The notes under the pieces are model-generated. The model saw nothing but the letters and a program-made list of their open reading frames with translations. It had not been told where the DNA came from and made no database searches. A stretch of DNA of 64,000 nucleotides from Methanosarcinaceae archaeon. GTDB taxonomy: Archaea > Halobacteriota > Methanosarcinia > Methanosarcinales > Methanosarcinaceae. Shown in pieces: positions 3,599-25,099 of this stretch. The translations under genes were made by a program, and so were the position numbers. The stretch spans positions 1 through 64,000 of the forward strand of contig JAIPUR010000004.1 in NCBI GenBank assembly GCA_020055655.1, in the 5' to 3' direction. The number at the start of each line of letters is the position of its first letter. Within the stretch, counting starts at the first letter, position 1.

Positions 3599-3639
3599 TT
3601 CTTTGGGTAAATTATGCATTAAAAGGGCGAGTTGATAAC

Positions 3640-4167: not shown

Positions 4168-4219
4168 AAAAATTAAAAAAAGGAACTTGGAATTATTGTT
4201 CTAATAATGTATTTTTCGG

Positions 4220-4903: not shown

Positions 4904-5008
4904 AGTTTTTCTCCGGTGATCTCGATCCTTGAAGTATAGCAAATAAACAGGGCATAATCACGTGCAGGTACACATAATTATTACTCTATTGTTGTCAGAT
5001 TGCTGTTC

Positions 5009-8093: not shown

Positions 8094-8311
8094 GCGTTCT
8101 CATTTGGGTCTAATATACTTAAATCTTTTGAAGCATTAAGTGGTCCGAAATTTTAAAAAACGTTTTCAAAAAGCACTATTATTCTATTTTTGGCATACTA
8201 ATTTGGTATAGTTTAAAGTATTATTAGTTTTAAATGCTTTCTAAGCAGCTTTAGTAAACTGGCACAATATCTCTTTAGTATTATTATAGCACACATATTC
8301 AGGTGAATCTT

Positions 8312-9331
8312 ATGAATGAAATGACACTTAGAGATCGCTTTATATCTTCAATTAAAAGAAAAAAGACTGATAAGGTCCCTGCATGTTCTGTTACTCAGAC
8401 TGGTACTCTAGATCTTATGAAGCTTACTGGAGCTTACTGGCCAAAAGCACATTTCAATGCTGAAGATATGGCTGCTCTGGCTGTTGCTGCTTATGAGTTA
8501 GCAGGCCTGGAAGCTGTTCGTTACCCATTTGACATCACATCTCCTCTTCCTATGGATATGATCATTGAAGGAAATGTCGAAACTCAACCTTCGATCGTGA
8601 AGTTTCCCTGTGATGAAAAATCTGACCTGGATAACATTGATATTGAACAATTGTTTGATTCGGGCAGGATGGATACTATTATAGATGCAACACAGATCAT
8701 CCGGGACAAAGTCGGTGATGATGTACCTTTGATTGCAGGTGCCCCGGGTCCGGCTAATGTTGCGTATGGTCTTGTGGGTCCGAACAACTATCTTACGTGG
8801 ATGATCACTGATGAGGATACTTTTGGAAACATGGTTGATATTGGGGTGGAGTTCTCCCTTGAATATTCTAATACTCTTTTGGAGAATGGTGTAGATGCTG
8901 TCTGTATGCCTGAATCAAATGCTGGCCCGGATCTTATGCCTCCTCAGTTATTTGAATCCATGATAGTTCCTGCATATAAGGAACTAACTAGCAGATCAAA
9001 GGGTTTGCTTATAATGCATATGTGCGGGGATGCAGTGTGGATAGTTGACCCTATGGCAGATTCCGGTTTTGATGCTATCAGTATTGAAGAGAAGGTAAAT
9101 ATGGAATATGCTAAAAAAGTTATGGGTGATCGTGTTTGCATCATAGGAAATGTGTCTTCTGCAGGCACTCTTTTGTGGAAGTCAGAAGATGATATAATAG
9201 CTGAAGCAAAACAGTGTCTTGATGATGGTGTGGATATTCTTGCTCCAAGTTGTGGATTTGCTCCTCGTACTCCTCTGGATAATATGAAGGCACTTGTTAC
9301 TGCAAGAGATGAATATTATCTGGAAAAATAG
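8312..9331 (+). CDS. Methylcobamide:CoM methyltransferase, MtaA/MtbA family paralogue
   Basis: A 339-residue UroD-fold methyltransferase of the MtaA/MtbA group, which moves a methyl group from a corrinoid protein to coenzyme M. The zinc ligands are H236-M-C238 and C314 (in SCGFAP). N-terminal KTDKVPACSVTQTGTLDLM is the usual substrate-loop region. AGGTGA lies six bases before the ATG at 8312; the GTG three codons earlier is part of that ribosome-binding site and is rejected. It differs clearly from the mtbA-like gene at 13122, so the window encodes two distinct enzymes of this type. Its corrinoid partner is unknown. Confidence 0.85.
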   Translation: MNEMTLRDRFISSIKRKKTDKVPACSVTQTGTLDLMKLTGAYWPKAHFNAEDMAALAVAAYELAGLEAVRYPFDITSPLPMDMIIEGNVETQPSIVKFPCDEKSDLDNIDIEQLFDSGRMDTIIDATQIIRDKVGDDVPLIAGAPGPANVAYGLVGPNNYLTWMITDEDTFGNMVDIGVEFSLEYSNTLLENGVDAVCMPESNAGPDLMPPQLFESMIVPAYKELTSRSKGLLIMHMCGDAVWIVDPMADSGFDAISIEEKVNMEYAKKVMGDRVCIIGNVSSAGTLLWKSEDDIIAEAKQCLDDGVDILAPSCGFAPRTPLDNMKALVTARDEYYLEK

Positions 9332-9387: not shown

Positions 9388-9500
9388 TTAGTGCAATATG
9401 ATTTGCATACAATTATATTATTAATGTATCCGTTTGTAGTATAATATACGTATTATGTGAAGATCTTCCGGATGTATATATTTAGATATTGGTGATCATT

Positions 9501-11669
9501 GTGGCATTTGATAGATTATTTGAAACTGAAAGCATTGGAAAATGTAAATTGAAGAATCGAATAATTATGGCTCCAATGGGCAATATCAATATGGCTGATC
9601 CAGTTGGCCGTCCCATGAATAAGATGATCGATTATTTCGTGGAGCGGGCAAAAGGTGGAGCTGGTCTTCTAATAACAGGACTTGTGCCTGTGTCATATGG
9701 AATTGATCCCACTGTTTCTGAAGATAATGATACTACTTATTTTCCGCGAATAGATGGAACTTCACGCACACGATTATCAGGATGGAGGGATCTTACTGCT
9801 GGGGTAGATCCCTATGGTGCAAAGATGTTCATTCAGCTGACAGCAGGACTTGGGAGAGTTGGTTCTCCTGAGGTGTTGATGAAGGGAAAGATCTTGAGAT
9901 CTTCATCTATAAATCGTAATTTCTATATTCCTCAATTGCCGCATCTTCCCTTTTCTGACCGAAAGATCCGGAAAATTGTGAAAAGCTTTGGTCAGTGTGC
10001 TGTGAACGCAAAGGTTTCTGGTTTTGATGGTGTGCAGTTGCATGGCCATGAAGGATATCTGATGGATCAGCTGACATCCAGTCAATGGAATCGGAGAAGA
10101 CTTGGCAGGTACAGGAACAAGCATCAGTTCGGAATCGATGTTGTTAAAGAGATCAAGAAGCGTTGCGGTGATGATTTTCCTATTCTCTACCGTCTGGATC
10201 TGACCCAAGCATTACAGGAAAGTTATGGTGATGATGTTTTTAAAAAGCGCTTTGGTGGGAAAGAACGTAGTATTGAGGACGGCCTGGAATTTTGCCGATC
10301 CCTGTATGAAGCAGGAGTGGATGCCTTTGACGTTGATAAAGGGTGCTATGATAATTGGTTCTGGCCACACCCTCCTGCTTATTTTGATGATGCCATTTAT
10401 GCAGAGGAGCTTGCAGGAAGGCTAAAAGAGTTCTTCGAAAAAGAGGGAATAGATGCTAAAGTTGTAGCTGTTGGTAAAATGGGAAAACCTGAGGTTGCGG
10501 AGAATGTATTGGAATCCGGATGGGCAGATTTTGTTATGTTGGGCCGTCCTCTTCTTGCAGACCCATATTGGCCACAAAAAGTTAGGGAAGGTCGTATCCA
10601 GGAAATAGCTCATTGTATTGGTGATCACGAAGCATGCCTTGAGTCCCTTAAAATGGGTGGGCATCCCTGCTGCTCTGTAAATCCTTATGCTGGTTTTGAA
10701 GATTCGAAAAAGCTTGTTAAAGCTGAATCCATTAAGCGGGTTGCTGTCATTGGTGCTGGTCCGGCTGGTTGTGAAGCAGCTATGACTGCGCACCTGAGAG
10801 GTCATGATGTTACTGTTTTTGAAAAGGATGATCGTATAGGTGGTCAGCTTTATGCAGGCAGCAAGATGTACATCAAACATGACGTTAAACAATATCTTGA
10901 TAATCTTGCTTATCAGATGGAACTTTTGATGAATGATGGTCTTTCTGTTGAGTTCAACAGGGAAGTATTGGCTGCTGATCTGAAAGGTAAGTTCGATGTG
11001 GTGATATGTTGCAATGGACTTCGGGTGAAAGCTCCTTTTGTAGACGGGATGGATAATATTGGATATCAGGAGGTACGTCCTTTTCTGCTGAATGATATGA
11101 CATTGCCTGAAGGTGCGCAGAAGGTTCTCGTAGTAGGAGGTGGTGTTATTGGCTGCGAGGTCGCCTATTCACTTGCCTATGAGCAGGGTATTGATGCTAC
11201 TGTAGTCGGGCGAAATAATTACCTGATGCCTGATACTGTTCAGACCAACAGGGGTCAGATGATGTGGATGATGATGGGAAACGGCTCCCCTTCAGGCAGA
11301 AAAAGTTCAGCATTATCGAATCCTATAAAGGTTTACAATGCTTCAGAACTTGTTAAATTATCCGGGGATAAGGCATATTTACGCGTTAATAGGTCACGTG
11401 CAGAACCATATACTCCGTGGAAGCCATTGATTCCTGAAAATGTTGTAAATCCATTTGATAGTGTTCTTGATCCGCATAATGTGGAAGAACACGTAATTGA
11501 TGTAGATTTTGTGATCTTTGCTACGGGTGGAGTGCCTGATGATGAACTCTATTATGAACTATTGGCTCAAAATGCTGCAAATGAAATTTATTCAGTGGGT
11601 GATTCCAGTAAAACCGGGCGAGTGTGGGATGCGGTCAATGGCGCCAATGAAGTTGCCCGCAATATTTAG
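9501..11669 (+). CDS. FMN/FAD/Fe-S oxidoreductase of the trimethylamine dehydrogenase / dienoyl-CoA reductase family
   Basis: A 722-residue protein. Residues 1-350 are an Old-Yellow-Enzyme TIM barrel binding FMN (LKNRIIMAPMGN, GFDGVQLHGHEGYLMDQ, VGKMGKPEVAENVLESGWAD). The Fe-S segment follows and then an FAD/NAD(P)-binding half with VAVIGAGPAGCEAA and VLVVGGGVIGCEVA. The Fe-S segment has C372, C379 and C391, but the second canonical cysteine is D375. Start: GTG at 9501 after GGTGAT; an upstream in-frame TTG is weaker. Family members oxidatively demethylate amines or betaines, or reduce enoyl-CoA. Its place between methyltransferase genes suggests a methylated amine or an electron-supply role, which is inference. 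Confidence 0.8.
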   Translation: MAFDRLFETESIGKCKLKNRIIMAPMGNINMADPVGRPMNKMIDYFVERAKGGAGLLITGLVPVSYGIDPTVSEDNDTTYFPRIDGTSRTRLSGWRDLTAGVDPYGAKMFIQLTAGLGRVGSPEVLMKGKILRSSSINRNFYIPQLPHLPFSDRKIRKIVKSFGQCAVNAKVSGFDGVQLHGHEGYLMDQLTSSQWNRRRLGRYRNKHQFGIDVVKEIKKRCGDDFPILYRLDLTQALQESYGDDVFKKRFGGKERSIEDGLEFCRSLYEAGVDAFDVDKGCYDNWFWPHPPAYFDDAIYAEELAGRLKEFFEKEGIDAKVVAVGKMGKPEVAENVLESGWADFVMLGRPLLADPYWPQKVREGRIQEIAHCIGDHEACLESLKMGGHPCCSVNPYAGFEDSKKLVKAESIKRVAVIGAGPAGCEAAMTAHLRGHDVTVFEKDDRIGGQLYAGSKMYIKHDVKQYLDNLAYQMELLMNDGLSVEFNREVLAADLKGKFDVVICCNGLRVKAPFVDGMDNIGYQEVRPFLLNDMTLPEGAQKVLVVGGGVIGCEVAYSLAYEQGIDATVVGRNNYLMPDTVQTNRGQMMWMMMGNGSPSGRKSSALSNPIKVYNASELVKLSGDKAYLRVNRSRAEPYTPWKPLIPENVVNPFDSVLDPHNVEEHVIDVDFVIFATGGVPDDELYYELLAQNAANEIYSVGDSSKTGRVWDAVNGANEVARNI

Positions 11670-12151: not shown

Positions 12152-12811
12152 ATGACAGACGAAATTATACAGGGACTCACCGACGCAGTTATCAACGGTA
12201 AGAAAGACCAAGCAATAGAATTAGCTCAGAAAGCACTTGATGAAGGCGTAGACCCATATAACGCAGTTATCGATGGTCTTGCAGAAGGTATGAAGACAAT
12301 GAGTGAAAGGTACGATGCAAAGGAAGTATTTATGCCACACCTTCTCATAGCGTCCAACACAATGTACGGAGGTATGGACATCCTTACACCACACATCAAG
12401 CTAGAAGGTGGCGGAGAAAGAAAAGTTCTCGTAATCTGCACTGTAGAGGGTGACGTACACGATATCGGAAAGAACCTCGTAAAGACCATGATGAGCGCAA
12501 AGGGATTCAACGCAATCGACCTCGGTAAGGATGTACCAATCGAAGACATCGTAGCTGCAGTCGAAGAGAACAAGGCAGATATAGTCTCCATGAGCACACT
12601 CATGACCTCCACAATGGACAACATGCAAAAGGCTATGGACCAGATCAACGCAAAGGGTCTTAGGGACAAGGTAAAGATCATCATCGGTGGAGCACCAATC
12701 ACACCTGACTTCGCAGAAGAGATCGGAGCTGACTTCACAACAACCGATTCAATGGAAGCTGCAACCTGGGCAATGGAACAGGCAAATGCACTTGATGAAG
12801 GTAGATGGTAA
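12152..12811 (+). CDS. Methyltransferase cognate corrinoid protein, MtbC/MttC/MtmC type
   Basis: A 219-residue two-domain cobalamin protein that carries the methyl group between methyltransferases. Residues 1-88 form the helical cap domain (EGMKTMSERYDAKEVFMPHLL), and residues 90-215 the Rossmann-like B12 domain with D101-V-H103-D-I-G106, where His103 is the lower cobalt ligand. Size and motif match the methylamine corrinoid proteins. Which substrate it serves cannot be told: no mtmB, mtbB or mttB gene lies beside it. Codons are noticeably more biased (GTA, AAG, ATC, GAC) than in neighbouring genes, consistent with high expression. mtbA follows 310 bp downstream. Confidence 0.88.
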   Translation: MTDEIIQGLTDAVINGKKDQAIELAQKALDEGVDPYNAVIDGLAEGMKTMSERYDAKEVFMPHLLIASNTMYGGMDILTPHIKLEGGGERKVLVICTVEGDVHDIGKNLVKTMMSAKGFNAIDLGKDVPIEDIVAAVEENKADIVSMSTLMTSTMDNMQKAMDQINAKGLRDKVKIIIGGAPITPDFAEEIGADFTTTDSMEAATWAMEQANALDEGRW

Positions 12812-13121: not shown

Positions 13122-14138
13122 ATGGCTGAATATACACCAAAAGAAAGATTAGCACGTGCATTGAGAGGAGAACCTGTTGACAGAATGCCAGCAGTATCCT
13201 TCACACAGACAGGAACAGTAGAGCAGATGGACGCATGCGGAGCAGCATGGCCAGAGGCAAATGAAGATGCTGAGAAGATGGCAACACTCGCATCAGCAGC
13301 ACACACAGAACTTGGCTTCGAAGCTGTACGTGTTCCATTCGACATCAGCGCAGAAGCTGAATTCTTCGGATGTGGCATCAAAGCAGGTACAAAAGAACAG
13401 CAGCCATCCGTGAATACCCACGTTGTAAAAACCATGGAAGACGTTGAGTCACGCAAGGGCTTCGATATTAACACCGGTAGGATTGGTACGATCTGTGAAT
13501 CCATAAAGATCCTTGCAGACAAATATTCTGAACTTCCAATCATGGGAAGTATGCTTGGTCCTTTCTCCCTTGCACAGCACATGGTCGGAGATGACTGGTT
13601 CATGGCAATCATGACAGAACCAGATTTCGCACAGGCAGTTATGGATCTCACAATAGATTTCAATGTCCAGTATGCGAACAAGATGGTAGACAACGGTGCT
13701 GACACAATGGTGATCATTGACCCAACAGCAAGTGCAATGCTCATCGGTGAAGAATACTTCAAGCAGCTTGTAGTTCCTGCACACAAAGCTATTGTTGATG
13801 CAATGGAAGCAAGAGGTGTAACAACCGTCGTCCACATCTGTGGTGACACAACACTCAGTCTTGGACTCATGGAAGAATCTGGTTGCACAGGTATCAGCGT
13901 TGATCAAACTGTAGATATCGCAACAGCAAAGAGTAAGGTAAGCAGAGCAACAATTCTCGGAAACATCGATCCTGTAGCTGTACTCTGGAAGGGAAATCCT
14001 GAATCAGTTGCTGAAGTTACACAGAAGGCAATCGATGACGGTGTAGATATCATCGCACCTGGTTGTGGAATTGTAAGCAAGTCACCAAATGCAAACCTTA
14101 AGGCAATGGCTGACACTGCAAAGAAGCACACCTACTAA
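13122..14138 (+). CDS. mtbA: Methylcobamide:CoM methyltransferase MtbA
   Basis: A 338-residue zinc enzyme that transfers methyl groups from methylated corrinoid protein to coenzyme M in methylamine-dependent methanogenesis. Zinc ligands are H238-I-C240 and C315 (GCGIVS). Sequence stretches such as [20 protein letters not shown] and [19 protein letters not shown] correspond closely to what I know of Methanosarcina MtbA. It has strong codon bias like the corrinoid gene upstream, and its own promoter. GGAG precedes the start. It should receive methyl groups from the 12152 corrinoid protein among others. MtaA is the main alternative, but the N-terminal sequence favours MtbA. Confidence 0.88.
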
Positions 14139-14206: not shown

Positions 14207-14425
14207 ATTTGCTATTAATTACGTATCTATTTTATTATTATCTGTGTCTATGTCAATTCATTATAATTCTGAATTCTGATGGAAACATTTAATTCCTCAA
14301 ACACTATCAATTATGCAGGTTCGATTTAAGCAGTCGCGGTTCTCTAAAAACAGTTTAATGTAAGCGTTTAATTAGCTGTTTTATATTATTCTGTGTCCTG
14401 TAAAAAACAAAGGAACTATGGTACA

Positions 14426-15295
14426 ATGTCGGGAAAATCTTCTGTAAGAAATTCAATGCACCATTTCTGGGTAAACACTTGTTCATCTCATGGATGTATA
14501 TTGAGGGATAAGGGGAGATTGCTATTAACTAATGTATGGTATTTCCCCATTTTCATGCTCGTTACAATTTTCGGTACGTTAATACTGTATACTTATACCT
14601 ATTCAGGCGATGGTGTTTCCGGTGATCTGCGAGCTGAGTTCCTGCCGACTCTTATTCTTTCATCTTTGTGGCTTTTATTCTGGAAAAACAGTTGTTCTAA
14701 AGGTAGGATATTCCTTGTAGTTGCATCAGTTATTGGGCACGTACATGAAGTTCTGGGTGTACAACACGGCTACTTTACCTATCTTGGTGGTGCCTATGGC
14801 GGTGTTCCGCTTTGGCTTCTTCCTGGTTATGGTACTATATTCTGGTCTGCTCACAACTTATGGAAAGGATTTGAGGGTGCATTTTCAAAGCAGCACTGGT
14901 TCCATTATGTAAATTACTATTTACTTGCAAGTTCGATACTTTTACTGCTTCTAGATTATTTCGTCTTTAGTTTATCTCATGATCTTGTAGCGATAACGCT
15001 CAAATTCGTTATTGTATTCATGCTTTTCAAGGGAATTGCTGAGCTACGACTTGCTTATTTTGTTGCCTTCTTCACTGTGCTGACTGAATTTACAGGTGAG
15101 ATCTTGGGTGCATGGTCTCATCCAAATTTTTCTTTCTTTTCACTCATGGCTGGATATGTTTTCCTTCTATGGGTGTGCATGACGCTTCATGATTACCTCA
15201 AGGGTATTAAAAAATGGGGTAAAATAGAAGCTGTGGCAGCAGTTGTTATGGTAACATTTTATATACTATCACTACTGGGCTACTTTGAAGTTTGA
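14426..15295 (+). CDS. Polytopic membrane protein of unknown function
   Basis: A 289-residue protein with about seven hydrophobic helices. A conserved-looking segment in the middle reads GHVHEVLGVQHGYFTYL and then GGVPLWLLPGYGTIFWSAHNLW, and a later one ELRLAYFVAFFTVLTEFTGE, placing His and Glu residues within or near the membrane. This is loosely reminiscent of carotenoid-modifying DUF422/CruF-type membrane enzymes, but the match is weak. The ATG at 14426 is preferred over the GTG at 14393 because AAAGGA lies upstream and the intervening residues look noncoding. The dehydrogenase genes at 15392 and 16827 follow on the same strand. Confidence 0.6.
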   Translation: MSGKSSVRNSMHHFWVNTCSSHGCILRDKGRLLLTNVWYFPIFMLVTIFGTLILYTYTYSGDGVSGDLRAEFLPTLILSSLWLLFWKNSCSKGRIFLVVASVIGHVHEVLGVQHGYFTYLGGAYGGVPLWLLPGYGTIFWSAHNLWKGFEGAFSKQHWFHYVNYYLLASSILLLLLDYFVFSLSHDLVAITLKFVIVFMLFKGIAELRLAYFVAFFTVLTEFTGEILGAWSHPNFSFFSLMAGYVFLLWVCMTLHDYLKGIKKWGKIEAVAAVVMVTFYILSLLGYFEV

Positions 15296-15391: not shown

Positions 15392-16801
15392 ATGGATCCG
15401 GATATTCAAAGGGTTTTTCAATTGCAGCAGAAGCGGGCACCTGAGCTTGCTCTTCTGGATCATCACGCTCGTATAGAGCGTCTGTTGCGAATTGATCGCT
15501 ATCTCAAAGAGGAAAGTCATGTTGCAGAGCTTTTTGATGCTATGCAAAAGGATTTTCGTAAACATGAGGTGGAGGTAATTGCTACAGAGATTGGCGTTGT
15601 GCAGGCACAGATATCTCATGCGTGCAAAAAATTACGGCCCTGGATGAAACCACAGAAGATAAAAACTCCTTTTCCTATGATGGGCACCAGTTCACATATT
15701 GTTCATGAACCAAAGGGTGTTGTTCTTATAATAGCTCCATGGAATTATCCCTTCAATCTTTCTTTTGTGCCACTGGTGTATGCTATTGCTTCTGGGAATG
15801 CTGCTATTGTCAAGCCCAGTGAAGTATCTGCAAACACTTCATTTTTCATCAAGAAAATGATTAATGAACTATTTGATGAAAGTGAAGTAGCTGTTTTTGA
15901 AGGTGGCCCCTCTATAGCAGAAGAATTATTGGAGCAACCATTCAATCATATTTTCTTTACAGGCAGTCCTCAAGTTGGCAAAATAGTCATGGCTGCAGCT
16001 GCGAAGCATCTCTCTAGTGTAACACTGGAGCTGGGTGGAAAATCTCCGGCTATTGTGGACAGTACTGCCAATGTGAGGAAGGCTGCCAGAGGAATTGCCT
16101 GGAGCAAACTGGTCAACAATGGTCAAACCTGCCTTACTCCTGATTACTTAATTCTTCATGAGTCAATATGCGATACTTTTGTTGAAGAGTTCATAATGGC
16201 AGTGCAGGATTATTACAATCCCAATGGCCTTGGTATTGAAAATTCTCCTGACTATTGTCGTATAATCAATGAACATCATTTCCAACGTTTGAAGTCACTT
16301 TATGACGATGCCATCTCTAAAGGCGCTGAAGCATTGGTAGGTGCTCAATTCAATAATTCTGATTGCTTTATTTCTCCTACTTTGCTGGGCAATATCTCTG
16401 ATGATATGGACATCATGAAGGAAGAGATATTTGGTCCTATTCTTCCATTTGTAACATTTTCAAAGCCTGGTGAGGTTGTAGATATTATTCGTCAGAAACC
16501 CAAACCACTTACTCTTTACATTGCAAGCAAGGATGAAGGTAACATTGATTATTTTATGAAGGAAACATCTGCTGGTGGTACAGTTATCAATGATTACATG
16601 CTTGGCTACAGTAACCCTTACCTTCCATTTGGCGGTGTGAATGACAGTGGTATTGGAAAATCTATGGGTGTCCATGCATTCAAGGCATTCTCCAACGAGA
16701 GGAGCGTTATACGTCGGAACTGGGGAACTCTAAGCATGCTTTACCCTCCGTACAATGATCGTATACGCAGCCTGATACAATTACTTTACAGGTGGATGTA
16801 A
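15392..16801 (+). CDS. NAD(P)-dependent aldehyde dehydrogenase, ALDH3-like
   Basis: A 469-residue ALDH that oxidises an aldehyde to an acid. The general base is E213 in TLELGGKSP, the catalytic nucleophile is C247 in NNGQTCLTP, and the cofactor-binding IIAPWNYPFNLS and FTGSPQVGKIV are present. Shortness and the PWNYP / C-terminal PFGGVNDSGIGKSMG pattern place it in the class 3 (fatty or aromatic aldehyde) branch. It ends 25 bp before an SDR gene, so the two are likely co-transcribed and may act on successive alcohol/aldehyde steps. The physiological substrate is not evident. ALDHs of this branch are unusual in methanogens, hinting at acquisition from bacteria. Confidence 0.85.
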   Translation: MDPDIQRVFQLQQKRAPELALLDHHARIERLLRIDRYLKEESHVAELFDAMQKDFRKHEVEVIATEIGVVQAQISHACKKLRPWMKPQKIKTPFPMMGTSSHIVHEPKGVVLIIAPWNYPFNLSFVPLVYAIASGNAAIVKPSEVSANTSFFIKKMINELFDESEVAVFEGGPSIAEELLEQPFNHIFFTGSPQVGKIVMAAAAKHLSSVTLELGGKSPAIVDSTANVRKAARGIAWSKLVNNGQTCLTPDYLILHESICDTFVEEFIMAVQDYYNPNGLGIENSPDYCRIINEHHFQRLKSLYDDAISKGAEALVGAQFNNSDCFISPTLLGNISDDMDIMKEEIFGPILPFVTFSKPGEVVDIIRQKPKPLTLYIASKDEGNIDYFMKETSAGGTVINDYMLGYSNPYLPFGGVNDSGIGKSMGVHAFKAFSNERSVIRRNWGTLSMLYPPYNDRIRSLIQLLYRWM

Positions 16802-16826: not shown

Positions 16827-17630
16827 ATGACTGGGCGAACTAAAAGAACAGTATTGATCACAGGTGGCTCAAGTGGCATTGGACTTGAGTTTGCAAAGTT
16901 GTTCGCACGTGATAATTACAGTATTTTGCTTGTAGCCCACCCGCGGGATGATCTTGAAGCTACAAAAGCTCAACTTCTTGAATCATATCCTGGCTCTGAT
17001 ATTTCTGTAAGGTCCCAGGATCTTGCGCAGCAAGATGCTGCAGAGCTTCTTTATGGTTTTACAAGAGAGAATAACATTCTGGTAGATGTGCTTGTGAATT
17101 GTGCTGGATTTGGAACGTATGGTTTTGTCGATCATATTGAGCTTGATCGGGATTTGTCCATGTTGCAGCTCCATGTTGGCACCTTGTATCATATAAATCG
17201 TCTTTATGTTCGTGATATGATAGAACGGGATGTTGGTCACATTATCAATATGTCTTCAATATCTGCTTTTCAGCCCAATCCATATTTTGCAACCTATGGT
17301 GCCACTAAGAGCTTCATTCTGAATTTCAGTCGCGCTTTGAATTATGAGCTGCGTGAAAAAGGTTCGAACGTACATATAATGGCTGTATGTCCTACTGCCG
17401 TAAAAGATACTGGTTTCCAGATCACTGCAGGCATGTCTAAGACAAAGACTTTCGATTCATGGATGAGCATAACTCCTGATGTCGTGGCGCAAGATGCATA
17501 CCATGCTATGAAACATAAGAAGGATCTGGTAGTTCCTGGTAGATTTATGGGTCTGGCCAGATCGATCGCATGTCGTCTGCCATCAAAATGGTTAATGCGT
17601 ATGTCTCGTGATCAACTGCGTGAAAAATAA
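16827..17630 (+). CDS. Short-chain dehydrogenase/reductase
   Basis: A 267-residue classical SDR. The nucleotide-binding motif is TGGSSGIG at residues 11-18, the NCAG motif is NCAGFGTYG, the catalytic Ser lies in NMSSISAFQ, and the YxxxK pair is Y157 and K161. The sequence resembles the DltE/YqjQ-type SDR group, which lacks a single known substrate. ATG follows a weak ribosome-binding site. It sits 25 bp after the aldehyde dehydrogenase and 75 bp before the first DUF5714 gene, all on the plus strand, so it may link the two sets of genes. Confidence 0.85.
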   Translation: MTGRTKRTVLITGGSSGIGLEFAKLFARDNYSILLVAHPRDDLEATKAQLLESYPGSDISVRSQDLAQQDAAELLYGFTRENNILVDVLVNCAGFGTYGFVDHIELDRDLSMLQLHVGTLYHINRLYVRDMIERDVGHIINMSSISAFQPNPYFATYGATKSFILNFSRALNYELREKGSNVHIMAVCPTAVKDTGFQITAGMSKTKTFDSWMSITPDVVAQDAYHAMKHKKDLVVPGRFMGLARSIACRLPSKWLMRMSRDQLREK

Positions 17631-17705: not shown

Positions 17706-18410
17706 ATGGATAGTGATGAGCGAAAAGTTAATTGTATGATATGTGGCGGCGAGGTTGAGTATAACAATGAATCCACTCATTGTAAGTGCTATTACTGCGG
17801 GCTTGAAGAAGAATCCTATTTCAAGTGTGAGAATGGACATTATGTTTGCGATAGCTGTCACACTCATGATTCACTGGATGTTATAAGGCACATCTGCTTA
17901 AATACTGATCTTAAGAATCCTATGGATCTGGCTGAAAAAATGCTTGAACATCCTAAGATTCATATGTTTGGCCCTGAGCATCATTCCCTGATACCTGCTG
18001 CTCTTGTAGCTGCATATCAAAACTATATTGGTAAAAAGGATGCGAAACAGATAATTGAAGCTATCGAACGTGGTAAGAAGGTTCCAGGTGGTTATTGCTT
18101 CTTATGTGGTGCTTGTGGTGGTGGCCTTGGTGTTGGCATTGCTGTGAGTGTGCTTTCAGATGCGACTGCTTTTTCTCCTGAGCCAAGATCTCATGCGAAC
18201 TGGGCAACAGCAAAAGCCCTTCAGGTGGTTGCTGATGCCGGAGGTCCTCGGTGCTGCAAAAAATCAACACGTATTGGAATGGAAGAAGGAGTTAGTTATA
18301 TTTCCAAATTGTTCAATGTGGACTGGGATAAGGATATAGATCTTTCTATAAAATGTAGCTATAGTCATTTGAATAAAGAATGTGATCCTACTTGTAAATA
18401 CAGGCCTTAA
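17706..18410 (+). CDS. DUF5714 Cys-rich protein, copy 1
   Basis: A 234-residue protein. The first 55 residues form a zinc-ribbon-like part (CMICGG, CKCYYCG, CENGHYVCDSCH). The rest is the DUF5714 domain: MFGPEHHSLIPAAL, GKKVPGGYCFLCGACGGGLG, then GGPRCCKK and a C-terminal ECDPTCKYRP. The CGACGGG stretch followed by CC is similar to C-GCAxxG-C-C redox proteins, which probably bind Fe-S or another metal. GAGGAATAAAA precedes the ATG. A second copy lies at 18707. Such proteins occur with TrsS-type radical SAM genes in anaerobes, and one lies at 21679 here. Function unknown. Confidence 0.78.
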   Translation: MDSDERKVNCMICGGEVEYNNESTHCKCYYCGLEEESYFKCENGHYVCDSCHTHDSLDVIRHICLNTDLKNPMDLAEKMLEHPKIHMFGPEHHSLIPAALVAAYQNYIGKKDAKQIIEAIERGKKVPGGYCFLCGACGGGLGVGIAVSVLSDATAFSPEPRSHANWATAKALQVVADAGGPRCCKKSTRIGMEEGVSYISKLFNVDWDKDIDLSIKCSYSHLNKECDPTCKYRP

Positions 18411-18418
18411 AGTAATCA

Positions 18419-18437
18419 TTTTTTTTTCTTTTTTCTT
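18419..18437 (+). terminator. Oligo-T terminator after DUF5714 copy 1
   Basis: A long run of T broken by two C residues directly after the stop codon. Poly-T tracts suffice for termination in many archaea. It separates the transcripts of the two DUF5714 copies, which have 296 bp of AT-rich sequence between them. Confidence 0.55.
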
Positions 18438-18706
18438 GATGCTTTTAGTTTAGTGCTTTTTTCAAAATACATGTTACTTATATAGTTATTTTTAAAAATT
18501 AATTGAAATACCATTACTTTAGGCATGATCATGTATTATTCCTTTTATTTTGTCTTATCCTCCAATAATTCATAAATTATGTATAATGTTAACAGATGTT
18601 GCTTGTTTTTTATGAAATATGACATGAAAACCTTTAAGTGTACTTTTCATTCAATGTTCCTATGAAAGCGTATTAATTATTCTATAATTTAAAAAAGGTG
18701 TTGTTT

Positions 18707-19426
18707 TTGGATATAATCAGTCTGGATATGGGTAGTAAAAAAACAAATTGTATGATTTGTGGAAGTGAACTTGAACATTTGAATGAACCTGTGGCAGCTG
18801 CATGTGAATATTGTGGTGCTGAGGAAGATGGGTATTTCATATGTAAAAGTGGGCATTATGTGTGCAATGGATGTCATTCTAAGGATGCGTTAGAGGTAAT
18901 AATGAATGTATGCTTGAATACTGATAGTGCAAATCCAAATGAAATTGCTGAGGCTTTGATGCTTCATCCGAGTATTCATATGCATGGTCCTGAGCATCAT
19001 GCTTTGGTTCCAACAGTTTTGACAACAGCTTACCTCAATTATATTGACAAAGACGACGATGACGCTATAATTGAAGCAATGGAGAGGGGTAAAAAAGTTC
19101 CAGGTGGTCACTGTGCCCTATATGGTGTTTGTGGTGGGGCTACAGGGGTAGGAATAGCTGTTAGTATACTTACCGAGGCAACACCATTGACAGCAGAGCC
19201 ACGCTCACATGCAATGTGGTCAACTGCCCGCACTTTGGATGTAATAGCAGATTCAGGTGGTGCCCGCTGTTGTAAAAAAGCTGTCAGGATGTCTTTTGAA
19301 GAGGGCGTTAAGTATATGTCCAAATTATTTGGCAATAATTGGGTAGATGATGTGGATCTGTCTGTGAAGTGTACTTACACTAAGCTCAATACAGAATGTG
19401 ATCCTACATGCAAGTACCGGGCTTGA
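18707..19426 (+). CDS. DUF5714 Cys-rich protein, copy 2
   Basis: A paralogue of the preceding gene, about 239 residues, collinear over its length: zinc-ribbon part CMICGSELEH to CKSGHYVCNGCH, domain core MHGPEHHALVPTVL, GGHCALYGVCGGATG, GGARCCKK, and ECDPTCKYRA at the end. Compared with copy 1 the extra Cys in CFLCGACG is Tyr here (CALYGVCG). The start is uncertain: TTG at 18707 has AGGTG seven bases upstream, GTG at 18698 overlaps that signal, and ATG at 18728 aligns with copy 1 but lacks one. The duplication suggests two specialised subunits or partners. No enzymatic function is assigned. Confidence 0.75.
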   Translation: MDIISLDMGSKKTNCMICGSELEHLNEPVAAACEYCGAEEDGYFICKSGHYVCNGCHSKDALEVIMNVCLNTDSANPNEIAEALMLHPSIHMHGPEHHALVPTVLTTAYLNYIDKDDDDAIIEAMERGKKVPGGHCALYGVCGGATGVGIAVSILTEATPLTAEPRSHAMWSTARTLDVIADSGGARCCKKAVRMSFEEGVKYMSKLFGNNWVDDVDLSVKCTYTKLNTECDPTCKYRA

Positions 19427-19462
19427 TTTATATTAAAAAATAAAGTCCTATATTTCTATTTT

Positions 19463-20143
19463 TTAGGTTCTTGTGTTTTCAGCAAACACATTATCATAAA
19501 CCAAAGCTGCAACGGTTCCGCCTATGATCGGTCCAATCCAGTAAATTGCCTGATCAACCCAGTATCCTGATGCAAGCGCTGGTCCAAATGACCTTGCAGG
19601 GTTCATGGATGCACCTGTAATGGGCTCACCTATCAGGATTGCCAGCAGGACTGCTGTGCCGATTGCAAATCCTGCAGATCCATTCGGGGCGCGTTTGTCA
19701 ATGGCTGACCCAAATATTGTGAATACCAAAATAAATGTGAGTATCGCTTCTAACATTATGCCTGATGTGGCATTGACATCTGAAGCAAGGGTAGTCGCAC
19801 CCAAGTTGAAATCTGTAATAGCAGATGGGAATATGCTCAATATTAGAAGACTTGCGATAATTGCACCTGATATTTGAGCAATTATGTATGAGATAGAATC
19901 TGTGATGTTCATTCTTCTAGTAATGAACATCGCTATTGTTACTGCTGGATTGATGTGTGCACCTGATATGTGTTTAGTGGCATAGACCATTGACATGACA
20001 ATAAGTCCTGATGAAATTGCAATTCCGATAAGTCCTAATGAGCCGTTACTCATATTGTTGGTAGCCATTGCTCCTGTTGCTACAAATACAAGTGAGAATG
20101 TTGATATGAATTCAGCCAGATACCTTTTCATTGACTCGTTCAT
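19463..20143 (-). CDS. Aquaporin / MIP family channel (AqpM-like)
   Basis: A 226-residue membrane channel with six hydrophobic helices and the two half-helix NPA motifs: GAHINPAVT and GASMNPARS. The selectivity-filter Arg follows the second NPA. The N-terminus RYLAEFISTFSLVFVATGA is typical of archaeal aquaporins of the AqpM group, which pass water and sometimes glycerol or small gases such as H2S. GAGGTTGAAAG precedes the ATG. It is convergent with DUF5714 copy 2 and transcribed on the same strand as the downstream-facing AMP ligase gene, 255 bp away. Whether it belongs to that gene set is unknown. Confidence 0.9.
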   Translation of the reverse strand: MNESMKRYLAEFISTFSLVFVATGAMATNNMSNGSLGLIGIAISSGLIVMSMVYATKHISGAHINPAVTIAMFITRRMNITDSISYIIAQISGAIIASLLILSIFPSAITDFNLGATTLASDVNATSGIMLEAILTFILVFTIFGSAIDKRAPNGSAGFAIGTAVLLAILIGEPITGASMNPARSFGPALASGYWVDQAIYWIGPIIGGTVAALVYDNVFAENTRT

Positions 20144-20398
20144 CTTTCAACCTCTGTTTCTCATGCACTGTATAATATTGCGGAGCTTTAACACCGTTAA
20201 CAAAACAGGTATTTTATATATAGGTATGTTTGAAATATAATTGAAATATGCATCCTCCGGCACGATTTGTTTCGAATCTCTTTGAAATGGATTGATATTT
20301 CCCACTTAATTCATAGGTTAGTCCATACCGCAGAAACAGCATAGCTATGTGTATCAAATTGTAATAAGCAGCTATAAAAACGAAAAATCAAAGAATGC

Positions 20399-21535
20399 TT
20401 ATTTTGGCATCCTTTTAATATCAGTTATTCTCTGGTCAAGCAGAGCACCGCATTTGCAAGGCTCATCAAGTATTGATGTAAAATCTCTGGTGCTATAGCG
20501 GATAAGTGGCATGCATTTCCTTCTCAGGGTGGTGATAACAAGCTCTCCTTCAACTCCTGGCGGAAGTATTTCTCTTGTTACTGGGTCAACGATCTCTATC
20601 AGGAAATCCGGGTTATCGACATGGAATCCATTCTGTTGGGAACACTCGATGGCATTGGCAAGTCCCAGTTCTGTCATTCCCCATTGTCTCAGGGCTTCAC
20701 ATCCCCATACACTTTCGATGTCTGCCCGCATTTCTTCAGTGAGTGGTTCAGATGAACAGATTATTTTTCTGATGCCTATATCTTTAATTCCATCTATGTT
20801 CTTTGCTTCCATTGATAATTTATGGACAAATGATGACAATCCTATAATATGGGTAGAGCCGGATTCCAGAATAGTATTGATCTGTTCTTCGACGCTTTCA
20901 GAATCATTTATTACGGATTTAACTCCTGCAAGCATGCATGCTTTTCCAAGTATCACTCCCGGGTCCCATGTGGCAGTTATGGTTGGGTACATGATGTGCA
21001 ATGTATCATCCTTAGAGTCCATCTCCAGCATTTTCAGGGCGGATATGATGGCATCCACGATCTCAAGGATCTCGTCCTGGCTATATGCTATCATTTTTCT
21101 AATGCCAGTGGTTCCTGAACTTGTAAATTCCCTAACTATTTTTTTTCTTGGGATGCATAGGAAATGGTATGGTTTTGCAGCAAGATCTTCTGGGTTTGTA
21201 AGTGGGATCTTTGCCAGATCATCGTAGGATTCTATTTGTGATGGGTCAATTCCTTCTTTTTCAAAGACATCTTTGTAATAGCTGCTGTTTTCCATTACAT
21301 AGTTCAGTAGTTCGCGGAATTTTATGAGCTTGTAATCTTTTATATTTTCCCTGCTGAGTTCCTCGGGGTTAAAAAGTTGCTTGAGCTCTTTATTGTTTTT
21401 AATTTCATTTTTGATCTTATTGACTCCCCACTGCTCAAGTGGATTCCCATCTCTATGGTCTATCTTCCTGGATTCCAGTTTACGTTTTGCTACATTCATT
21501 TTAATAGATGTACTTATTTTTTCAGAAAGACTCAA
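20399..21535 (-). CDS. AMP-dependent CoA ligase, phenylacetate-CoA-ligase-like (DVU_1553-like)
   Basis: A 378-residue adenylate-forming enzyme, shorter than full phenylacetate-CoA ligase (about 430). The N-terminal segment FRELLNYVMENSSYYKDVFEKEG is the PaaK signature, the AMP-binding P-loop is FTSSGTTGIRKMIAYS, and further motifs are RQWGMTELG and the C-terminal LIRYSTRDFTS. It ends soon after DQRITDIKRM, so the usual mobile C-terminal domain is missing. TTG start at 21535 with GGAGG seven bases upstream. Short ligases of this kind occur next to TrsS-type radical SAM genes, as here. It may activate a carboxylate for a cofactor or thiol-ester step. Confidence 0.75.
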   Translation of the reverse strand: MSLSEKISTSIKMNVAKRKLESRKIDHRDGNPLEQWGVNKIKNEIKNNKELKQLFNPEELSRENIKDYKLIKFRELLNYVMENSSYYKDVFEKEGIDPSQIESYDDLAKIPLTNPEDLAAKPYHFLCIPRKKIVREFTSSGTTGIRKMIAYSQDEILEIVDAIISALKMLEMDSKDDTLHIMYPTITATWDPGVILGKACMLAGVKSVINDSESVEEQINTILESGSTHIIGLSSFVHKLSMEAKNIDGIKDIGIRKIICSSEPLTEEMRADIESVWGCEALRQWGMTELGLANAIECSQQNGFHVDNPDFLIEIVDPVTREILPPGVEGELVITTLRRKCMPLIRYSTRDFTSILDEPCKCGALLDQRITDIKRMPK

Positions 21536-21616
21536 AACAATTCCTCCGGGTAAAATCTAGGATGAGTATGTCCTAAACTTATAAGTATGTATCATTAAAC
21601 AAAGTAAAAAAGATAG

Positions 21617-21652
21617 TAATATATGTTATCCATTGGTGGATAACATATATTA
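21617..21652 (-). terminator. 16-bp perfect hairpin with T-tract
   Basis: TAATATATGTTATCCA (21617-21632) is exactly complementary to 21637-21652 around a TTGG loop. Read on the minus strand, it follows the radical SAM stop codon by 27 bp and is itself followed by CTATCTTTTTTAC, so it looks like a terminator for the radical SAM mRNA. A CTTATAAG box further on (about 21577-21584) could start the ligase transcript. Confidence 0.7.
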
Positions 21653-21678
21653 TGTAAATTATTCTAGTTCAGATTGTA

Positions 21679-23127
21679 TTATCTGTAAAGGTGATTTCCC
21701 TTACAGTCTGTCATATTGTAGTTACAGAACGGTATGAATTTTCCATCACGTGTAACGACGTGTATGCAGCAGTTTTCAACCCTTTCTTTCTCATATGTCC
21801 ATACGTCCTGGAATGCCATCATTGAGATTGTAAGGTAACTGTTCGTGCTCATGTTCACGAAATCTCCCCACTCGCCTGCAGCATCAGTGTTAATGCTGCT
21901 CGTGGACAGGTCGCTAATTGGTGTTTCGCAGCATGAACTTTTTATTGTTAGGTCACTGAGTGGTTTATCGCAGCATGATCCTTTAATCATAAGATCGCCA
22001 GAGGAGTCATTCTTTTGATCATCAGAGCCCTTCCATCTTCCCATTATGGATCCTTTTGTTTTGCTTGCCACATCTTTTTCTGATTTCATTGCACCCATAG
22101 ATACATCTGTCAATGGCATGTATCCACCATTGGCATTTACCAGTGTAAGACATGTTGCACCGCAGTGGGCTGTGGGCATAAGTGCAGGTGTGAAATTATC
22201 CATTTTGATCTGGCCATTTGTTTGTTCTTCGATGGCCTTTAGGAGCTCGGGTGTGGTAACCTTTGCTTCTATTTCATCAGCAGATCTTCCAGAGAAGAAT
22301 ACCGGTTGGTAATGTACTCCTCTTATAGTTGGCAAATGCTTGCTTGCAAAATCAATTATCTTGCCAACTTCATGAAGGTTGTAGTTCTTTGCAACTAGTG
22401 GTACAAGGACTACTCCGATTCCAGCTTTTTCACATTTGTTAATAGCTTCAGACTTTAGGTCTAATTGCTTTTTACCTGTTCTCTGGATATATATGTCATC
22501 TGAAACCCCGTCAAAGCCGAGGTAAAGGGAATCTACGCCTGCTGCAGCAATCTTATCGAAGTATTCCTGATCTCTGGCAATTCTATTACCATTTGTATTA
22601 AGCTCAACGTGATTGATCCCCATGTCTTTTGCCATCTTGATTATTTCCGGCAGATCGTTCCTTAATGTAGGCTCTCCTCCGGATATTTGTATACATGTGG
22701 GTTCGTTTTGGCATTTTAAGACAGTTTCGAACATCCCCCTGATCGTATCCATATCAGGATCCAGACTTTCATCCATGGAAGAATTTGCAAAACAGTAGGT
22801 GCATCCCATATTACATCTGTCAGTTACTTCTACAACTGCCAGGCATGTATCTTGGGTGTGTTCCGGACATATTCCGCAGTCAAAAGGACAACCCTTCTCC
22901 ACTTTCGTCAAGGGTGCTTTTACTTTTGCTCTGTCTACTTCAAAACATTTGTCCATTAAGTTATAATGTTCAATATCGCTAGAAATAAGGGCTGTAAAAC
23001 TGCCATGTTCAGGGCATTCTTTTTTAATGTAGACTTTCCCCTCTTCTACGAACTTAACTCCCTCGATCCTCTTAAGGCACTCCGGGCAAAGACTTGTGAC
23101 TGTACCTATTTGTTCCATCGGTTTCAT
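21679..23127 (-). CDS. Radical SAM protein of the TrsS / tetraether-synthase-like family
   Basis: About 482 residues. An N-terminal cysteine module (SLCPECLKRIEG, KECPEHGSF, GCPFDCGICPEHTQDT) precedes the radical SAM core with CNMGCTYC and QISGGEPTLRNDLPEII. The C-terminus MAFQDVWTYEKERVENCCIH then FIPFCNYNMTD matches the TrsS family as I recall it; MJ0619-type tetraether synthases share the N-terminal part. About residues 370-410 hold a 14-residue tandem repeat containing SCCDKPLS and SCCETPIS. Start: ATG at 23127 (another ATG at 23118); an upstream TTG at 23148 is less likely. It sits between a palindromic operator-like site and a terminator hairpin, so it is probably monocistronic. Confidence 0.75.
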   Translation of the reverse strand: MKPMEQIGTVTSLCPECLKRIEGVKFVEEGKVYIKKECPEHGSFTALISSDIEHYNLMDKCFEVDRAKVKAPLTKVEKGCPFDCGICPEHTQDTCLAVVEVTDRCNMGCTYCFANSSMDESLDPDMDTIRGMFETVLKCQNEPTCIQISGGEPTLRNDLPEIIKMAKDMGINHVELNTNGNRIARDQEYFDKIAAAGVDSLYLGFDGVSDDIYIQRTGKKQLDLKSEAINKCEKAGIGVVLVPLVAKNYNLHEVGKIIDFASKHLPTIRGVHYQPVFFSGRSADEIEAKVTTPELLKAIEEQTNGQIKMDNFTPALMPTAHCGATCLTLVNANGGYMPLTDVSMGAMKSEKDVASKTKGSIMGRWKGSDDQKNDSSGDLMIKGSCCDKPLSDLTIKSSCCETPISDLSTSSINTDAAGEWGDFVNMSTNSYLTISMMAFQDVWTYEKERVENCCIHVVTRDGKFIPFCNYNMTDCKGNHLYR

Positions 23128-23207
23128 CTCGCTATTTTTTCCTTGCAATATCAGAAGAATTCAAAAGGGGAATGTTGCCCTTGTGAAACACCTGGTAAAC
23201 TGCCAGT

Positions 23208-23240
23208 GGCATAAATGTTGTATGCCTGGCATATAGTATT
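23208..23240 (-). promoter_or_regulatory. Operator-like palindrome over the radical SAM promoter
   Basis: TATGCCTGGCATA at 23221-23233 is a perfect palindrome around one central base, and another GGCATA half-site lies at 23208-23213. On the minus strand it overlaps an ATACTATATG TATA-like sequence about 105 bp before the radical SAM start. This layout fits a repressor that blocks TBP. The rest of 23240-23482 has no gene or obvious structure. Confidence 0.5.
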
Positions 23241-23482
23241 TTGCATTCTATTATCAATTCAGATAATTCCTGTAAAATCAGGAATGGATAATATTTAAGC
23301 CTACGTTTTGAATTGTGTTGAAATACACGTGCTGTGGCAGCATAGTTTACAAACTAGCCTGTGTTAATGTTGCATTTTCAATAAAGTATTTACTGCTAGC
23401 TATAGCTACAGTTATTTGATCTAATGTAAAAGAGAGAAACTATTGGTGTTCTGGTAAAAAAATAAAAAATTAGAGAGCTAAA

Positions 23483-23938
23483 TTAAGCTCTCTTTTCGCC
23501 GAGAATGGACTCAGCTACTGCAAGTGTCTTGACCATTTCTGGTTCTACATAAACGTCCTTGCACTTCTGGCATACAATTGCAGGCCCTACCCTTGACATG
23601 CCCATGAAACTCATGCTTACGTTCATGTTCATTGCGGTCTCGCCACATTTGTTGCAGATATACTTACTCTCAAGTGGTGTTTCCTGTTCTGCATCCCAGC
23701 CGCCAGCAGGCTCTCCAGCTTTCATCTGGTGTGCATAGCAGTTTACAACTTCTTTGTCGTTGTATACTGCGTAGCTGGTGAGATTGTCTGTTACGTTCTT
23801 TGCAATGCATACGCTACCGTCTGCTGCCTTAAGTTTGTCTCCGCTTGCTTCTGCTGCGTTTACAATTTCCAAGACATCGGATTCCTGGAACCCATTGTCC
23901 TTCAATAAAGTCTTTACTTCGTCAGATATAGTTACCAT
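23483..23938 (-). CDS. Zinc-ribbon redox protein (CLJU_RS11820/DUF7479-like) with N-terminal extension
   Basis: A 151-residue protein. Residues about 1-90 are an extension resembling a small regulatory fold (VKTLLKDNGFQESDVLEIVNAA). Residues 95-151 hold YICNKCGETA, MSFMGMSRVGPAIVCQKCKDVYVEPEM and LAVAESILGEKRA, which match the short redox proteins found in TrsS-associated clusters in bacteria. The two CxxC pairs probably bind zinc or iron. GAGGGTTTACTC precedes the ATG. It follows the UroD-family methyltransferase gene by 48 bp on the same strand and is almost certainly in its operon, suggesting that it serves that enzyme as an electron or metal partner. Confidence 0.7.
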   Translation of the reverse strand: MVTISDEVKTLLKDNGFQESDVLEIVNAAEASGDKLKAADGSVCIAKNVTDNLTSYAVYNDKEVVNCYAHQMKAGEPAGGWDAEQETPLESKYICNKCGETAMNMNVSMSFMGMSRVGPAIVCQKCKDVYVEPEMVKTLAVAESILGEKRA

Positions 23939-23986
23939 GAGTAAACCCTCATCATTAGTTATTAATTTTTAGGTGTCCTTTCTGCC

Positions 23987-25099
23987 TCAGAACTTTGTGT
24001 ACTGTCCAAAGTCTCTTGCAGCCTTTACGATTGCACGAACGTTTGCAGGTGGTGCAAAGGTTGGGCATTCACATGATGTACCGAGGATGTATCCGCTTGG
24101 TGAATCTTTACCTGCAAGTACCTGTGACTTAGCCTGCTCGTATACCTGCATCTGTGTACCACGGTCTACAAGCTTTGTGTCGACACAACCAAGACAGATT
24201 GCTCTGTCACCGAAAGCTTCTGTGTGCTTTGCGGATGGGAATATGTCTTTACCATCATATCCGATCTGGACTACTGTGAATGGGCTCATTGGAGCTGTTC
24301 TCCACATGTCGTAGTCGTCTGCGTGGTTTCCACAAAGGTGAAGGTATACACCAGGTCCAGCGCCTGCTTTCAGTACCTTTCTGATAGCTTTGGATACTGG
24401 GTCGAATCCGAATCTCTTTATCTGTTCTCTGTCGAGAAGGTCACCACTAGCAATTACAGATCCGGTGATCATTACGTTTGCGCCGTATCTTTCTGCTGTG
24501 CATGAACATGCGCTCTCCATGTGGTCTCCTGCCTTGGTGAGGAGTTTGTCAACTACTTCTGGTTCTGTAACCATCCACATGAATACATCATCAATGCTTA
24601 CCCAGTTGGTTGCAACTTCCAAAACACCACCAAGTTGTGTGATTGGTGCGAACATCTGTGGGTACTCGTTGAATACTGTGTCGAGTGCTTTGAAGTGTGT
24701 TTCGAATGTTGGACCGTCTTTGAGTTCCTCTGGAGGAAGTACTCTGAATGCGTCTACATCCTCTGCGGTCTTGATCGGGCGGGTCTTAAGTGCTGGTGGT
24801 GCACCTGCCTTTGTAACGAGCTCTCCGCCGTAGTCTGCACCCCAGTAATCTGCATACAGGAAGTGACCTACTGGTGTGATGTCGTAGAGTTCACAAGCAC
24901 CACAAACCATCCTAACTGCTTCGTCTGGGTTTCCGTAGAAGTACTCTACACTTTTCTTGTATACTCCTGCTGCATGTGATAACATGATAGGATCTACAAT
25001 TACTCTTTCCGATGGCACATCTGCGAACGGTGTTGTCCACAGGCTGCCTGCGCTTTCTAACCAATTTGTGTCTATTGGAGCAAAATCTTCTGCTGGCAT
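23987..25099 (-). CDS. Divergent UroD-family zinc methyltransferase
   Basis: A 370-residue enzyme of the MtaA/MtbA/UroD superfamily but clearly different from the two MtbA-like proteins. The zinc site is H254-L-C256 with C343-E-C345 (GTSCECP), giving an extra cysteine near the usual third ligand. It has a longer N-terminus (APIDTNWLESAGSLW) and a central GGVLEVATNWVSIDDVFMWM. Strong codon bias suggests high expression. GGTGATTAAATC precedes the ATG. The adjacent redox protein and a long leader with a motif shared with the corrinoid gene at 12152 point to methyl metabolism. The methyl donor and acceptor are unknown; a methylthiol or quaternary amine is possible. Confidence 0.75.
   Translation of the reverse strand: MPAEDFAPIDTNWLESAGSLWTTPFADVPSERVIVDPIMLSHAAGVYKKSVEYFYGNPDEAVRMVCGACELYDITPVGHFLYADYWGADYGGELVTKAGAPPALKTRPIKTAEDVDAFRVLPPEELKDGPTFETHFKALDTVFNEYPQMFAPITQLGGVLEVATNWVSIDDVFMWMVTEPEVVDKLLTKAGDHMESACSCTAERYGANVMITGSVIASGDLLDREQIKRFGFDPVSKAIRKVLKAGAGPGVYLHLCGNHADDYDMWRTAPMSPFTVVQIGYDGKDIFPSAKHTEAFGDRAICLGCVDTKLVDRGTQMQVYEQAKSQVLAGKDSPSGYILGTSCECPTFAPPANVRAIVKAARDFGQYTKF

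Follow-up and report, generated by a model that had tools for sequence, protein, structure and literature searches.

What does a radical SAM enzyme of the TrsS family do in a methanogen, where it is encoded close to genes for corrinoid-dependent methyl transfer? The question is raised by the window analyzed here, a 64,000-nucleotide stretch of DNA from a Methanosarcinaceae archaeon (contig JAIPUR010000004.1, positions 1 to 64,000). An earlier note had described six of its genes as a candidate system: two copies of the Cys-rich protein DUF5714, an adenylate-forming ligase (LIG), the radical SAM enzyme (TRSS), a redox protein (REDOX), and a divergent methyltransferase of the UroD superfamily (UROD). 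All six were confirmed as real open reading frames (ORFs) at the coordinates given for them, and in profile searches they match the families named. These six genes stand, but they are only half of the conserved island, which spans about 6.8–25.1 kb of the window and also takes in a corrinoid protein (CORR), the methyltransferase MtbA (MTBA), a flavoenzyme (OYE), an aldehyde dehydrogenase (ALDH), a short-chain dehydrogenase/reductase (SDR), and a membrane protein (MEMB). About a dozen gene families are kept or lost as a unit in some methanogens. The island is a variant of the sequence-defined, functionally uncharacterized TrsS system, which has been catalogued mainly from bacteria. Our leading, still tentative, reading is that it encodes an inducible methyl:coenzyme M (CoM) pathway, perhaps for a methyl-sulfur substrate, with a low-abundance TrsS module that makes or installs something the pathway needs. 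Taken as a whole, the interpretation given in the earlier note is partly supported.

Co-inheritance of the island in Methanosarcinaceae

The sample consisted of 46 Methanosarcinaceae genomes, 16 of them with close TrsS orthologues (TrsS+) and 30 without (TrsS−). OYE was found in all 16 TrsS+ genomes and in none of the 30 others, MEMB in 16/16 and 1/30, and DUF5714 in 16/16 and 2/30, one of these two being a fragment (Fisher p = 1e-12 to 2e-10, with the relatedness of the genomes ignored). The co-occurrence over archaeal genomes that the earlier note had expected was therefore seen, with TrsS, OYE, MEMB, and DUF5714 together in the same 16 of 46. The distribution is patchy inside genera, so repeated gain or loss of the whole set is needed to account for it. 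Moreover, TrsS and DUF5714 are separated by a few kb in some genomes and by 12–22 kb in others, and the conservation is therefore not a by-product of fixed gene order. The named carriers are Methanolobus species, Methanococcoides seepicolus, a Methanohalophilus, and Methanosalsum natronophilum. The island ties the TrsS system to methanogenesis in these strains, some of them isolates, whose growth phenotype can be tested. Two genomes of one genus that are without the island (G033, locus L069, and G069, locus L071) have kept DUF5714 alone, whole or as a fragment, which looks like a remnant of loss.

When about 40 kb around most of the TrsS orthologues in the family were fetched and their proteins clustered into families, the shared families ran on upstream of the interval first reported: a transcription regulator (REG), a Cys-rich ORF, OYE, CORR, MTBA, MEMB, ALDH, and SDR, and then DUF5714. 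LIG, TRSS, REDOX, and UROD make up a single invariant block. In the window this block reads from UROD to LIG, and it is the same in every locus not interrupted by a contig end. In genome G004, MEMB, ALDH, and SDR stand directly after OYE, and in G029 the ALDH gene reads as two pieces.

The methyl-transfer genes

UROD (23987–25099, minus strand; PF01208, 103 bits) has a His-Cys-Cys zinc site, H254, C256, and C343, that is invariant in 11 sequences. Sites of this type have been linked with S and Se methyltransferases in the UroD superfamily (PMC10418091), and a methyl-sulfur or methyl-selenium substrate is favored for this reason. An O-demethylase was also considered, since the UroD-type substrate:corrinoid methyltransferases (MT1s) include such enzymes, and was rejected because by the same rule the zinc site is of the S/Se type. 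The protein is only 17–20% identical to MtaA and MtbA, and reached 42–63 bits on the models for these enzymes, below curated cut-offs of 235–600; among solved proteins, the nearest by profile are MtaA (E 8e-7) and CdmB (E 3e-6), both of them weak matches. Close relatives were absent from the bacterial TrsS genomes, and the nearest one outside the island, in genome G137, is 37% identical and adjoins a corrinoid protein 46% identical to CORR. From its pairing with corrinoid protein genes, UROD is probably a substrate-specific MT1.

CORR (12152–12811, plus strand; TIGR02370, 203 bits) is a methyltransferase cognate corrinoid protein, and MTBA (13122–14138, plus strand; NF041608, 585 bits, cut-off 600), present in 10 of the 16 loci, is the methylcobamide:CoM methyltransferase MtbA. 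REG (6814–7596, minus strand; PF08350, 111 bits), of the Msr/FilR1 type, was found in the loci of the 16 TrsS+ genomes. Next to it is a gene for a RamA-type corrinoid reductive activase (5009–6634, minus strand; TIGR04270, 720 bits, cut-off 500), a neighbor present in the fetched stretch of nine loci. Because MtbA, RamA, and Msr-type regulators stand alongside UROD and CORR, the simplest reading is that of an MT1, its corrinoid protein, and a second methyltransferase (MT2).

The island thus shares the corrinoid protein, MtbA, the activase, and the Msr-type regulator with the known corrinoid methyl:CoM systems (MT1/corrinoid protein/MtaA-MtbA/RamA), but its UroD-type enzyme is of an uncharacterized lineage, and radical SAM, OYE, ALDH, and SDR genes are inherited with it. 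A UroD-superfamily methyltransferase with the His-Cys-Cys site, a corrinoid protein, and an activase are likewise found in the type 1 mlp clusters (PMC10418091); there, however, Mlp2 and Mlp3 take the place of the single UROD, the archaeal members are Methanococcales, and radical SAM, AMP-dependent, and aldehyde enzymes go unmentioned in the text of that paper. G137, which belongs to another family of the same phylum, has eight UroD-type matches; at L177:9310–11193, the relative of UROD stands beside the corrinoid gene.

Codon usage

Codon adaptation was calculated with the genome's own mcrA as reference for every window ORF of 150 residues or more (53 in all, from a mechanically made list in which some entries are not genes). 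CORR, which ranked highest, UROD, and MTBA were the three most mcrA-like ORFs, and the 98th percentile reached by UROD agrees with its description in the earlier note as highly expressed. REDOX lay at the 91st percentile, TRSS and LIG near the median (53rd–60th), and OYE, ALDH, SDR, MEMB, and DUF5714 at the 9th–36th. CORR, UROD, and REDOX also stood above the rest in means over nine or ten genomes, for which MtbA was the reference. Because of this split, a low-abundance accessory or biosynthetic role of the TrsS module is preferred over bulk oxidation of a carbon skeleton, although both an accessory role and bulk catabolism are possible on such indirect evidence.

TRSS, LIG, and REDOX

The assignments of the radical SAM enzyme and the ligase held when checked by profile: the best models were NF045646 for TRSS (21679–23148, minus strand; 476.6 bits, cut-off 490) and NF045666 for LIG (20399–21535, minus strand; 261 bits, cut-off 300), both scores being slightly under the curated cut-offs. 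A single TrsS orthologue (G112) passes the cut-off of NF045646, but the island proteins, at 464–493 bits, are clearly set apart from all others, at 394 or less, in 295 genomes of the phylum. On the Tes model TRSS reached only 383 bits, below the Tes cut-off of 450. In a maximum-likelihood tree, the archaeal TrsS proteins group together (100/100) and are joined to the clade of bacterial TrsS (94/82), while the Tes-like archaeal proteins form a separate clade (100/100); because of this placement, we regard the archaeal proteins as a separate lineage of TrsS and not as Tes. Two bacterial rows of the tree, L109 and L113, had a stop codon in the sequence used, which is unlikely to affect the archaeal placement. 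A search of plasmids for TrsS returned distant relatives only.

TRSS is nevertheless homologous over its whole length to Tes (GDGT-MAS; structure 7tol) and has the same metal-ligand set for four metallocofactors. The rubredoxin-type site, the Cys and His ligands of the N-terminal cluster, the radical SAM triad, the cysteines of the C-terminal cluster, and the probable labile Met are all aligned and conserved. In contrast, the probable position of Tyr459 of Tes is Val in TRSS, which also has extra cysteines of the TrsS type. Tes forms a carbon-sulfur intermediate on its C-terminal cluster (PMC9433317), and by analogy TRSS may do the same.

LIG is a DVU_1553/PaaK-like adenylate-forming protein without the entire C-terminal domain. 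It keeps the N-domain motifs SSGTTG, GMTE, and RYxTRD, and PaaK (4r1l) aligns to it only as far as residue 319 of the 436 in PaaK. All 16 archaeal LIG orthologues end 15–21 residues past the CxCG motif, compared with 88–139 residues in the bacterial DVU_1553 proteins with intact ends and about 117 in 4r1l. In adenylate-forming enzymes the C-terminal domain carries the adenylation lysine and is needed for thioester formation. With this domain missing, an ordinary CoA-ligase reaction is unlikely for LIG, and its loss in every archaeal member narrows the options for the adenylate-forming step.

REDOX (23483–23938, minus strand) is a two-CxxC protein in which the C-terminal domain of the bacterial dicluster flavoprotein is fused to DUF7479 (PF24292, 41 bits, cut-off 27). 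The first half of the protein corresponds to the C-terminal end of NF045663 (positions 681–756), and NF045645 also matches. A fusion of the same type recurs in Citrifermentans bremense (L102:8373–8873).

Comparison with bacterial TrsS clusters

Bacterial loci do show the association of TrsS with a ligase, a C-GCAxxG-C-C protein, a methyltransferase, and a redox protein on which the earlier note had drawn. The 18 loci compared carry TrsS and the ligase with varying subsets of the dicluster flavoprotein, the DVU_1557 redox protein, the DVU_1556 SAM methyltransferase, and the DVU_1555 C-GCAxxG-C-C protein. DUF5714, which the note had counted among the recurrent partners, failed to hold that place, being present in only 2 of 17 bacterial TrsS genomes. 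The commonest bacterial companion is an aldehyde oxidoreductase, either a molybdopterin enzyme accompanied by MocA- and XdhC-like genes or one of the tungsten type (AFOR; loci L098, L102, and L104). L096 is an exception, with acyl-CoA-type genes instead of an aldehyde oxidoreductase (families judged from sequence starts only); at 2244–6119 of this locus, two ligase and two TrsS copies flank 2-hydroxyacyl-CoA dehydratase-like genes and an activator.

The archaeal island therefore has in common with the bacterial cluster of the DVU_1551–1559 type (NF045646, NF045666, NF045645, NF045663, NF045667, NF045669, and NF045668) TrsS, the DVU_1553-type ligase, a dicluster-C-terminus/DVU_1557 redox protein, a methyltransferase nearby and, in most loci, an aldehyde-oxidizing enzyme. 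It differs in the separate lineage of its TrsS and the missing C-terminal domain of its ligase. The full dicluster flavoprotein, the DVU_1555 C-GCAxxG-C-C protein, the DVU_1556 methyltransferase, and a Mo/W aldehyde oxidoreductase are absent from the island, which has UroD/corrinoid, OYE, ALDH, SDR, MEMB, and DUF5714 genes instead. What the clusters have in common appears to be an enzyme that oxidizes aldehydes, and not a pterin cofactor. As the archaeal role, maturation of a tungsten aldehyde oxidoreductase was considered and rejected, since AFOR did not co-occur with TrsS in the archaeal genomes, where Mo hydroxylases were not searched. As the earlier note had stated of the bacterial cluster, no published function for it or for the TrsS family was found in the literature searched, and no paper was found there on DUF5714 or on the archaeal gene set with its corrinoid wiring, truncated ligase, and OYE, MEMB, ALDH, and SDR genes.

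Possible functions of the island

In the reading that we tentatively prefer, methyl transfer would run from a substrate compound to CORR by way of UROD, MtbA would pass the methyl group from CORR to coenzyme M, RamA would reactivate the corrinoid, and Msr/FilR-type regulators would switch the pathway on. TRSS, LIG, REDOX, OYE, ALDH, SDR, MEMB, and DUF5714 would be the archaeal form of the bacterial TrsS module, present at low abundance. As for its chemistry, hydrogen abstraction from an unactivated carbon is the probable reaction of TRSS, whose C-terminal Fe-S cluster would hold the carbon radical as in Tes. The product would most likely be a group needed by the abundant UROD, CORR, or REDOX, which the module would make or install by way of an aldehyde-level intermediate; an aldehyde-oxidizing enzyme does accompany TrsS in most of the bacterial loci examined and in the archaea. 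The proposal of the earlier note that the genes make or insert a cofactor likewise agrees better with the codon-usage split than bulk catabolism does, and is kept here as a possible reading. Such a pathway would suggest that methane is formed from a methyl substrate to which no genes have so far been assigned. As a standard methyl-burning pathway is joined here to the TrsS system, both the food and the job of the enzyme become testable.

Several points weigh against this reading. Abundance can be gauged only indirectly from codon usage, and the two gene groups stand closer together in the other genomes than they do in the window. The zinc rule, being correlative, fits a thiol-methylating second methyltransferase as well, and UROD is far from every characterized UroD methyltransferase. 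Furthermore, OYE, ALDH, SDR, and acyl ligases are families just as typical of catabolism, and the demethylated skeleton may be what they process.

This last point leads to the alternative that survives best, which we consider doubtful: UROD and CORR would take the methyl group, and OYE, SDR, ALDH, LIG, and TRSS would oxidize or rearrange the remaining skeleton, giving electrons for the conversion of methyl to methane. Besides enzyme classes typical of skeleton oxidation, it has in its favor that one bacterial TrsS locus, L096, carries acyl-CoA-type genes and most others aldehyde oxidoreductases, and that Msr-type regulators adjoin both operons in several genomes. However, OYE, ALDH, SDR, and LIG would have to keep pace with the top-ranked methyltransferases, and their codon adaptation is ordinary or low; LIG, in addition, has lost a domain on which normal CoA ligases depend.

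It is also conceivable, if rather unlikely, that the TrsS module makes a new cofactor or prosthetic group, of acyl or lipid origin and bearing, for instance, a thiol, that would serve UROD, CORR, and REDOX as methyl acceptor or electron carrier. If so, one new cofactor would be common to the archaeal and bacterial clusters, each of which would use it with partner enzymes of its own.

We give little credence to UROD being the second methyltransferase, which would move methyl from the corrinoid to a thiol, either CoM or a new thiol cofactor, with the substrate-specific methyltransferase encoded elsewhere in the genome. The zinc site is indeed that of the CoM methyltransferases, the best, though weak, NCBIfam models for UROD are of the MtaA/MtbA type, and MtbA is absent from some loci; yet it is present in 10, UROD has little identity to MtaA or MtbA, and elsewhere, UroD proteins related to it are found paired with corrinoid proteins. 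Quite improbable, too, is the modification of membrane or isoprenoid lipids by TRSS, MEMB, ALDH, and SDR, in the manner of Tes and Gms and with the methyltransferases as merely co-regulated neighbors. The cofactor set that TRSS shares with Tes, the class-3 fatty aldehyde type of ALDH, and the membrane location of MEMB would suit it, but the set is inherited along with UROD and CORR, the Tes-like proteins form their own clade, Tyr459 of Tes is replaced in TRSS, and most bacterial TrsS loci have aldehyde oxidoreductases, with no lipid genes noted there. That the genes are unrelated neighbors, as their several transcription units and the aquaporin gene between them might suggest, is contradicted by co-occurrence in 16/16 against 0–2/30 genomes with order and spacing varying, and is barely tenable.

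Remaining island proteins and flanking genes

OYE (9489–11669, plus strand; PF00724 and PF07992; 1ps9, E 1e-56) is a flavoenzyme of the 2,4-dienoyl-CoA reductase/trimethylamine dehydrogenase type in which one Fe-S cysteine is replaced by Asp379, and this D379 is invariant. It was considered as an ordinary enone reductase, but carries the E-G-Y stretch of 2,4-dienoyl-CoA reductase instead, and because of that stretch is given no confident activity. ALDH (15392–16801, plus strand; PF00171) is a class-3 (fatty/benzaldehyde-type) enzyme whose best structures include 6k0z, 1ad3, and 4qgk, and its E213 and C247 are invariant, as are Y157 and K161 of SDR (16827–17630, plus strand; PF00106, 122 bits). 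MEMB (14393–15295, plus strand) is an integral membrane protein of unknown family; no meaningful Pfam match was obtained even at loose thresholds, and a known membrane family was rejected. Paralogues of MEMB outside the island (L196:9091–9954 and L197:8494–9357) lie near ketoacid:ferredoxin oxidoreductase-like genes and a small zinc-ribbon gene.

The two DUF5714 copies (a, 17706–18410, and b, 18698–19426 with the start probably at 18728, both plus strand; PF18978, 190 and 189 bits, cut-off 26.2) are 59% identical, and the duplication is private to this genome, the other TrsS+ genomes being single-copy. Predicted structures of DUF5714 (pLDDT 61) and MEMB (pLDDT 48) were too poor for fold searches. 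DUF5714 was also considered as the archaeal equivalent of the C-GCAxxG-C-C protein and rejected, since in a profile comparison the best match, although on the CGA motif, did not reach significance (E 0.083 for one comparison, probability 0.7%). In a large genus of the same order (f5 g13; loci L180, L185, and L188), DUF5714 occurs with small ArsR- and DsrE-like genes, a BadF/HgdC-type activator and its dehydratase-like partner, and metal-type P-ATPases (judged from sequence starts), which is a different association of this family.

The small Cys-rich ORF of the island, orf119 (7734–8093, minus strand), has conserved CxxC pairs and no Pfam family. An aquaporin-family channel gene (19463–20143, minus strand; PF00230), a frequent neighbor found in 10 loci, sits between the DUF5714 pair and LIG and had gone unmentioned in the earlier note. 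Outside the conserved set, the island is flanked by an MtaA gene (8303–9331; NF040654, 441 bits, cut-off 400) and by a gene for a DUF169 protein (4220–4942) that adjoins RamA.

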